DNA of 64,000 nt from assembly GCA_027214385.1 (NCBI GenBank), contig JAPVXR010000014.1:1-64000 (forward strand), written 5' to 3'. A program made the translations under genes and the position numbers. The notes under the pieces are model-generated. The model saw only the letters and a program-made list of their open reading frames with translations. It did no database searches and was not told where the DNA came from. This document shows positions 55,446 to 57,339 of the stretch, piece after piece. Numbering within the stretch: the stretch's first letter is position 1; each line of letters starts with the position of its first letter. The stretch comes from Cryomorphaceae bacterium 1068. GTDB taxonomy: Bacteria; Bacteroidota; Bacteroidia; Flavobacteriales_D; Cryomorphaceae.

Positions 55446-56352
55446 GCCGCTTATCACGAAGTTGGAAAAAGTAGGACAGTGTAAGTCCTGAAATGATATG
55501 CCAGATGCCCCACCATGCTGCTATCATAGCCATCCCGCCATTTCCATCGAAAAAATTAAAGATAATGATGAGGCCCAGGCCTGAGTTTTGGATCCCTGTT
55601 TCGATAATAACCGTTCTTTTTAAATCATCCTGCAAGCCGAAAGCCTTTGCCGAAAAGTATCCGGAAAGCAAAGCTACACCATTATGCACCAGAACGAGCA
55701 CGAAAACTAAATCGATATGATCTAAGAAAGCATCGAAATTATTGAGTAATCCGACGGCTATAAACCCCAATAGTACTAGCATACTTATAATTCTGATAGG
55801 CTTCTCAATTTTTGAAGTGATATGGGGAAATCTCTTTCTGAAAAGAATCCCTAGGATCAATGGGATTACCAATAAGATCAAAACGGTTTTAAGCATATCG
55901 AAAAAACTTAGCTCAAATGAGGTGAGAAAATCACCGGCTTGGAGCGCGCTCTTCGAATAGAAGTCAAAGTTGAAAGGTGTCAAAATTGGACTTAGAAAAG
56001 TTGCAACCGCGGTAAGCGTTACTGAAAGAGAAACATTCGCGCCTGAGATAGAGGAAAAGAAATTTGAAATATTTCCACCCGGACAAGAAGCCACCAGAAT
56101 CATCCCAAGTGCCAAAGCAGGATGAGGTTTGAATACAAGAACCAAGATGAAGGTCAGAAGGGGTAGAATAATAAATTGCGAGCATACACCAGCCAAAACG
56201 GCCCTAGGGTTCTTCATAAGCTGCTCGAAATCTGCTGTGTTTATTCCCAATGCAACGCCAAACATGATAAAGCCTAGGCATAGGTTGAGCAGCACTAAGC
56301 TATCACTGGAAAATGAAATCGAGATGGAATCGAGTGAAACTGTAGAATCCAA
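55423..56352 (-). CDS. BASS-family bile acid:sodium symporter-like transporter
   Basis: Nine or ten membrane helices are predicted in the BASS fold. Recognisable segments are LNLCLGFIMFGVALGINTADFEQLMKNPRAVLAG (TM1 and the first loop), PLLTFILVLVFKPHPALALGMILVASCPGGNISNFFSSISGANVSLSVTLTAVATFLSPI (the sodium-site crossover regions), and ETGIQNSGLGLIIIF. BASS members import bile acids, pantothenate, pyruvate or other organic anions with sodium; the substrate is unknown. No ATG lies ahead of TM1; TTG 56352 is the start consistent with the fold. A candidate structured RNA ends just upstream (see 56385-56577). Confidence 0.8.
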   Translation of the reverse strand: MDSTVSLDSISISFSSDSLVLLNLCLGFIMFGVALGINTADFEQLMKNPRAVLAGVCSQFIILPLLTFILVLVFKPHPALALGMILVASCPGGNISNFFSSISGANVSLSVTLTAVATFLSPILTPFNFDFYSKSALQAGDFLTSFELSFFDMLKTVLILLVIPLILGILFRKRFPHITSKIEKPIRIISMLVLLGFIAVGLLNNFDAFLDHIDLVFVLVLVHNGVALLSGYFSAKAFGLQDDLKRTVIIETGIQNSGLGLIIIFNFFDGNGGMAMIAAWWGIWHIISGLTLSYFFQLRDKRLTERTPS

Positions 56353-56384: not shown

Positions 56385-56544
56385 AGAAAAACCGCAAGTG
56401 CGTCCTGAAAGCGATTCAAAGAATCGATAACCAATCAATCTAAAACAACCATTAAAGATCGGACTACACTTGCGGCTGCTAGCATACCTAAGTATACTAA
56501 CGGGCTAACCAAAACCTCGCTGTATTTCTAGAATCGAAATACAG
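56385..56544 (-). ncRNA. Candidate structured RNA or leader upstream of the BASS transporter
   Basis: On the minus strand three stem-loops follow each other: CTGTATTTC/GAAATACAG (56520-56544), TAGTATAC/GTATGCTA (56480-56499, whose one non-Watson-Crick pair is G-U on the minus strand but A-C on the plus strand), and a long stem CCGCAAGTG/CACTTGCGG plus GGAC/GTCC (56392-56475) enclosing a CGATTC/GAATCG hairpin (56412-56426). A T-rich run (TTTTTCTTTTTC) follows the last stem, so it resembles a terminator. A well-formed promoter lies upstream. It could be an independent small RNA or a riboswitch-like leader. I recognise no known class. Confidence 0.5.
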
Positions 56545-56546
56545 GT

Positions 56547-56577
56547 CAAATATAGTGGTGTTTAGTCTATGGGAAAA
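56547..56577 (-). promoter_or_regulatory. Putative promoter of the structured RNA
   Basis: On the minus strand TATATTTG (56547-56554) is a perfect Bacteroidota -7 box, with TTTT (56574-56577) 19 bp upstream as a -33 element. Transcription would begin near the first stem-loop. Confidence 0.55.
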
Positions 56578-56988: not shown

Positions 56989-57339
56989 ATGTATAGACAA
57001 GGTGATGTATTGTTAGAGAAGTTGAACTCTATACCAGAGAGAAGTACTACGAATGAAACGCTTTTGGTAAGGGGTGAAGGACGTAATCATGGTCATTTTA
57101 TAAAAGGTGAGGCCGTTGAAATACTTGTCGCTGATGAAAACGAGTTGACCGATGGAGGAGGACTGGTGACTCAATATCTGAATGTAGAGTCAGAAGCTGC
57201 GCTTGAGCACCTCTTGATTGATTCACGTGAATGGACACAAGAGCATGCGCCAATAGTCATCCCACCGGGAAAGTACAGGGTGATCAAGCAAAGAGAGTAC
57301 AATCCATACTCAAAAGCTATAAGAGCTGTAAGAGATTGA
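56989..57339 (+). CDS. Small QREY-motif protein, first gene of a two-gene module
   Basis: Protein of 116 aa. Visible segments are MYRQGDVLLEKL at the start, GEGRNHGHFIKGEAVEILV in the middle, and EHAPIVIPPGKYRVIKQREYNPYSKAIRAVRD at the end. The pattern RQGDV ... GE(G)R/ATGHxH ... EH..I.xPxGxYxVxxQREY is shared, as far as I recall, with small proteins found beside DUF6745-like genes in several phyla, but I cannot confirm this. The three histidines of the GHFIKGEA/EHAPIV region could bind metal. No function is assigned. It is 10 bp upstream of the larger partner gene. Confidence 0.65.
   Translation: MYRQGDVLLEKLNSIPERSTTNETLLVRGEGRNHGHFIKGEAVEILVADENELTDGGGLVTQYLNVESEAALEHLLIDSREWTQEHAPIVIPPGKYRVIKQREYNPYSKAIRAVRD

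Follow-up and report, generated by a model that had tools for sequence, protein, structure and literature searches.

A conserved structured RNA ahead of a BASS transporter gene in Cryomorphaceae

Introduction

What is the role of a strongly folded RNA of about 160 bases that lies directly in front of a transporter gene? The question is raised by the minus strand of positions 56542-56385 in the window, by which we mean the whole stretch of 64,000 nucleotides of Cryomorphaceae bacterium 1068 that was analysed. The RNA coded there stands 5′ of a gene for a BASS-family transporter, and an earlier note on the sequence had suggested that it could be a new structured RNA, either free or acting as a leader.

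In the present work, we examine this proposal by means of folding calculations, comparisons between genomes, and searches of RNA families and of the literature. We will show that the RNA is well supported by comparison, and that it has a hairpin in common with other RNA-like loci of the same genome. The absence of a match in Rfam and the conservation both speak for the proposal, and on the basis of these sequence comparisons the RNA may be called a new family, of a known kind. Since a named strain, Cryomorpha ignava QSSC 1-22, is among the carriers, and since the comparative support is accompanied by a compact common hairpin, the function is directly accessible to experiment.

Results and Discussion

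The elements of the locus follow one another on the minus strand from 56554 to 56380 as a promoter box, hairpin 1, an invariant 18-mer with a mini-hairpin, hairpin 3, a stem of 9+4 base pairs and a U tract. The box, TATATTTG, is read at 56554-56547 and is a perfect -7 element, as had been claimed. All seven loci of the family have a TAnnTTTG box at a distance of 26-29 nt ahead of GCGAGG, and CTTT or CTTG stands 20 nt upstream of the box. PMC9723704 places this box at -12 to -5 in Flavobacterium psychrophilum, and the same spacing would put the predicted start at about G56542, which is the first base of hairpin 1. The possible overlap of a stem with the transcription start, which had been seen as a weak point, is on this account a minor one. 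Upstream of the box there is a stretch like CTTGAAATCACATTA (56605-56590, minus strand), which by eye is loosely kept in five of the seven genomes and weakly in a sixth, and which is possibly a regulator site.

Hairpin 1 (56542-56522, GUAUUUC/GAAAUAC), running from the inferred start, is indicated by both fold and comparison; three of its pairs have changed on both sides, and 85.7% of the cells are paired over the 8 modelled pairs in seven genomes. The next element, GCGAGGUUUUGGUUAGCC (56520-56503), contains the mini-hairpin GGUU[UUGGUU]AGCC (56516-56503), and all 18 of its positions, GCGAGG to AGCC, are invariant in the seven genomes. Hairpin 3 (56501-56478, 10 bp) is variable in sequence: 8 of its 10 pairs have changed on both sides, and 100% of the cells are paired. 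Its U-G pairs would be A-C mismatches on the other strand, which supports the orientation as the earlier note had argued. The small invariant hairpin at 56516-56503 is not among the three stem-loops of that note.

The long stem (56475-56392) is composed of a 9-bp part, CCGCAAGUG/CACUUGCGG (56475-56467/56400-56392), and a 4-bp part, GUCC/GGAC (56464-56461/56405-56402). Each part contains one pair changed on both sides, with 93.7% and 100% of the cells paired, respectively. It encloses the invariant core UCUUUAAUGGUUGUUUUAGAUUGAUUGGUUAUCGAUUCUUUGAAUCGCUUU (56458-56408), which has the arms GAUCU/AGAUU and CGAUUC/GAAUCG and is invariant at 47 of 51 positions in the seven genomes; the central 23-mer of the core occurs once per genome in seven of the eight family genomes when up to 3 mismatches are allowed. 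The tract TTTTTCTTTTTC (56391-56380) follows, and it is U-rich in all seven loci. The proposed terminator-like ending holds to the extent that the 9+4 bp stem and the tract are there. It is not a simple terminator hairpin, as the roughly 57 nt between the arms, which include the most conserved sequence, are unusual for one, and a canonical terminator scan (loop 3-8) did not report the long stem. It is important to point out that the sigma-70 scan and the terminator scan are ill-suited to this organism and to this terminator, respectively.

A leader peptide in the core (TTG GTT ATC GAT TCT...) was also considered and can be ruled out: the stretch after CGCTTT varies in length by 0-6 bases and not in threes, so that the seven sequences have no frame in common.

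The fold of 56577-56385 has a calculated energy of -60.9 kcal/mol, compared to -40.88 ± 4.09 kcal/mol for 200 dinucleotide shuffles (z -4.89), none of which is as low. The model structure has seven helices, with three hairpins preceding the long stem. In the alignment of the seven related genomes 96.3% of the 322 pair cells are kept, and slid structures pair only 31-39% of the cells (at most 38.7%). Of the 46 pairs, 13 have changed on both sides, where shuffles average 8.0, the covariation score of 0.343 (vs 0.144) is reached by none of 500 shuffles, and the consensus fold lies at -89.7 kcal/mol vs -39.2 ± 4.2 kcal/mol for 100 column shuffles; as the seven-sequence alignment was fitted to the model, these covariation and consensus-fold figures lean towards it. 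The stems are conserved and covarying, as the earlier note had asked of relatives.

The sequence constraint is very uneven. Invariant positions number only 2 of 25 for hairpin 3 and its immediate neighbourhood, 3 of 63 for the stretch upstream of the box, and 6 of 38 from the stem to the start codon. Between the window and the other family members, the BASS proteins share 50-73% identity. The RNA can thus be described as covarying scaffolding with frozen blocks. The UUGGUU loop of the mini-hairpin has an unpaired probability of at least 0.95 in all seven full-length folds. A conserved antiterminator was not found in seven prefix folds from which the 3′ strand of the long stem had been removed; the partners of CCGCAAG differ or it stays open. 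Control at translation or through a protein may be compatible with this result.

By blastn, the RNA is found in seven of the eight genomes of the family that were compared, representing five genera. In the eighth (G007) the BASS match begins at base 3 of a contig, at residue 145, which means that the transporter gene is cut by the contig edge and that the RNA region is absent from the contig. Among 199 genomes of the order, 16 have blastn matches with E up to 0.01; seven are those of the family, and the other nine have matches of 19-46 bases. Six of these nine loci were inspected (all except L010, L015 and L016), and none shows an RNA-like setting. The covariance model R1 picks out 13 of 299 order genomes at E up to 0.1, seven in the family and six elsewhere with 17.7-20.8 bits; the one of these six that was inspected (L030) is antisense inside a murD-like frame (name by eye). 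Among 395 genomes of the class, where the own genome was the sole family member drawn, R1 finds this genome and three others at 21.5-22.5 bits, close to the 24.3 and 21.9 bits of the own paralogues discussed below. Two of the three are antisense in frames of more than 900 codons and one is a GC-rich hairpin set; none has both invariant blocks.

Short exact words lead to the same picture. An exact 16-mer gives 49 stretches across the genome contigs, six of which are family loci, and of the other 43, none of which continues like the RNA, 35 lie in open frames of at least 200 codons. The exact 14-mer of the mini-hairpin occurs outside the family in 3 of 391 order genomes, fewer than a reversed-pattern control (ca 25 hits). 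As the searches of order and class give no convincing distant match, we treat the RNA as specific to the family within the searched genomes.

The gene behind the RNA (56352-55423, minus strand) has an assigned TTG start at 56352 and codes for 309 amino acids. It belongs to the BASS family (SBF, PF01758) with a Pfam match of 6e-40 on a longer frame; TIGR00841 matches with E 1.2e-55, yet below its curated cut-off. The nearest solved relatives are 8oyf and 3zuy (E 1.8e-41), which we take to be of the ASBT type. In all seven loci, from five genera, the BASS gene is immediately preceded by the RNA, with 38-68 nt from the stem to the assigned start. This start is TTG in six loci and GTG in one, and no usable in-frame ATG precedes the conserved domain in any of the seven; the one in L007, at -27, runs into an in-frame stop. 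The transporter gene does indeed lack a usable ATG, much as had been noted, and TTG at 56352 is the likely start. In L001, L003 and L005 the open frame extends back to a TTG in the terminator stem, so that the start codon is an assignment.

Beyond the family, BASS matches turn up in 19 of the 120 order genomes searched. The ten closest orthologues (L136, L138-L145, L158; families f3, f4 and f9), to which the start-codon comparison was confined, all have ATG as first candidate start, and their genomes contain neither the 14-mer nor an R1 match. The remaining nine matches (25-32% identity) lie outside this comparison.

A perfect TAnnTTTG box is not found between the stem and the start codon in any of the seven loci, the best match in each being 7 of 8 letters. 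The BASS gene seems to depend on the promoter of the RNA, which favours a leader. Genus g5 (L006, L007) has an inverted repeat GCGGTA..TACCGC just before the start, with TAACTTTA or TAATTTTA, 7 nt before the start codon, which is a possible operator or separate promoter.

The reading that we favour, with belief and doubt about equally weighed, is that in Cryomorphaceae the RNA serves the BASS transporter gene as a terminated 5′ leader. What is observed, and speaks for it, is a conserved covarying structure with a promoter box, in a constant position ahead of a gene that has a non-ATG start. Transcription would begin at about 56542, and the RNA would fold into hairpin 1, the invariant mini-hairpin, hairpin 3 and the long stem closing on the invariant core. 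Polymerase would then mostly stop at the U tract, and the BASS gene, which has a weak start codon and lacks a convincing promoter of its own, would be expressed from the fraction that reads through. A putative binder of the invariant UUGGUU loop, of the core, or of both could shift the balance between termination and read-through, or alternatively free or hide the start codon. In its short, terminated form the RNA may have a function in trans as well.

Several points speak against a leader. Among them are, from above, the lack of a conserved antiterminator, the unusual distance between the arms of the terminator, the possible separate promoter in genus g5 and the fact that the start codon had to be assigned. 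Of the four paralogous loci described below, two (C18 and C13) have no convincing gene behind them to lead. The surroundings are also partly kept, with a typA-like gene upstream and a 119-aa frame downstream in the five loci that are long enough (names by eye), so that the linkage between RNA and BASS gene could reflect slow rearrangement.

The main alternative is a free small RNA acting in trans, with its own promoter and terminator, in which the UUGGUU loop, open in all seven folds, would be a seed or a protein site and the position before the BASS gene would be incidental or a matter of leaky read-through. We consider this less likely than a leader, but a serious candidate, as is a molecule that combines both functions. 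What speaks for it, besides the open loop, is the recurrence of the hairpin. With up to 2 mismatches on either strand, the 18-mer has four occurrences in the own genome (C3, C13, C18 and C14, the last being the present RNA). In the relatives there are two places in the sister species G004, two in G001 and one each in G002, G003, G005 and G006; G007 has none. The exact 14-mer is present at three further places in the own genome and one further in the sister species. The paralogous loci (G000:C3:391990, C13:10844, C18:27588 and G004:C34:15165; L048, L041, L047 and L045) have GGUUUUGGUUAGCC in common. Each of them folds into a three-way junction made of a closing stem, the same mini-hairpin, a variable hairpin and a short A-rich joint, after which a separate terminator hairpin of 10-12 bp follows. 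The z values of these folds are -3.5 to -5.2, and for C3 one of 200 shuffles is as stable. The loci have different sequences in their closing stems, third arms and terminators, and the difference is smallest between C18 and C34. It should be noted that the paralogues were found through the hairpin motif, and its invariance among them is therefore partly a result of selection.

By eye, all four paralogues have a -7-like box about 4 nt before the closing stem, perfect in C18 only, and the same offset as above would place +1 on or next to the first paired base. C18 is flanked on both sides by frames that run opposite to it, with a converging frame downstream, and C13 is followed by repeat-like frames only. 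Some 45 nt separate the end of C3 from the ATG of a following MltF-like frame, and some 300 nt separate that of C34 from a following PEP-synthase-like frame (names by eye). Downstream of the C13 locus (L041, ca 1200-1440) there are repeated units of the type GTTTTTGAAGGGTTTC.

A model of these loci, R2, was built from three paralogues and does not include C3, the closing stem of which is misplaced in an alignment of all four; C3 scores 16.8 bits. In 39 order genomes, 6 of them from the family, R2 is strong only in the genus of the window, with weak matches elsewhere (for example, G026 with E 0.038). One locus, G001:C4, has one mismatch in the 18-mer, an R2 match with E 0.016 and a 3-bp closing stem, and no terminator was seen there by eye.

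A free small RNA would, on the other hand, leave unexplained why the promoter of the BASS gene is unclear and its start non-ATG where the RNA precedes it. No long complementary target was found either, since the four places of the 18-mer in the own genome are all RNA-like loci. A likeness to the multicopy small RNAs GibS and FopS of Bacteroides, as PMC11697453 describes them, is that one conserved block recurs across otherwise different loci with their own promoters, which are putative in the present case. Compared by description, the present block differs in forming a closed hairpin within a three-way junction, and in that one of its copies has a fixed place ahead of a transporter gene.

Returning to the leader, a more elaborate version can be conceived, in which the RNA would represent a new class of leader with the sensing core inside its own terminator stem, and binding would decide whether this stem closes. 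Copies of the UUGGUU module would also have become part of separate small RNAs, and a single signal or protein could in this way control the transporter in cis and other genes in trans. We regard this scenario as improbable. The signal could be c-di-AMP or the transported solute: in all seven f9 loci (L139-L145) the BASS ATG overlaps the end of an upstream diadenylate cyclase frame (DAC, PF02457, E 6.8e-29 or better), and this cdaA-BASS pair, though it belongs to another family, hints that c-di-AMP and the transporter are linked. A c-di-AMP (ydaO) riboswitch would fit a transporter with such orthologues. The RNA has, however, no match in Rfam to this riboswitch, and the c-di-AMP link is one of gene neighbourhood in the other family only. 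Orphan riboswitch or attenuator leaders (e.g. the yjdF motif) are alike in having invariant blocks, covarying stems, one gene behind and a U tract; the Cryomorphaceae RNA differs from them in that the core is inside the terminator stem and no conserved antiterminator was found.

By analogy with CsrB-like RNAs, which present GGA motifs, the RNA might instead titrate a protein by displaying UGGUU three times, with one copy in the mini-hairpin and two in the core. All seven sequences contain UUGGUUA twice; six of them also contain AUGGUUG once, where G001 has AAGGUUG. The copies in the core are only partly open in the predicted folds, however, and the paralogues carry one UGGUU copy, which makes titration quite improbable. 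The motif given for the Bacteroidetes RRM protein RbpB in PMC12119571, GUAGGAUA, is also different, and a site for this protein was ruled out on that account.

The remaining question is whether the RNA belongs to a known class. The earlier note recognised none, and the search agrees: in Rfam 15 (4227 families) there is no match at gathering score in the 64000-base window, and up to E 10 the 551 bases around the RNA give four implausible matches, far below the cut-offs. A diverged 6S RNA or another housekeeping RNA would be in line with the strong conservation and the own promoter box. 6S RNA is a single long hairpin that imitates an open promoter. The 6S-Flavo model (RF01685), likewise of a Bacteroidetes RNA, has no match above cut-off in the own genome, the best being 20.7 bits (E 5) on another contig, which leaves room for a diverged form; as the model is above cut-off in none of 120 order genomes, its absence here says little. 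The present RNA does not match that model, has no 6S match up to E 10 around it, and, instead of one long bulged hairpin, has several hairpins together with a branched domain. We thus judge a 6S or housekeeping RNA to be very improbable indeed.

In the literature on RNAs of Bacteroidetes and Flavobacterium, riboswitches and c-di-AMP, no description of this RNA was found among the matches listed, which include PMC2864571, PMC11697453, PMC12119571 and PMC9723704. Regulatory RNAs of Cryomorphaceae are likewise not among the matches listed.

A chance fold of a non-functional spacer, finally, can be dismissed, as it is contradicted by the covariation, the invariant blocks and the conserved box in all seven loci.

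Elsewhere in the window, positions 56989-57339 of the plus strand code for a 116-aa protein (MYRQGDVL...), and this copy has no Pfam or NCBIfam match. By eye, the protein is kept near a DUF6745-like gene in L002, L004, L006 and L007.
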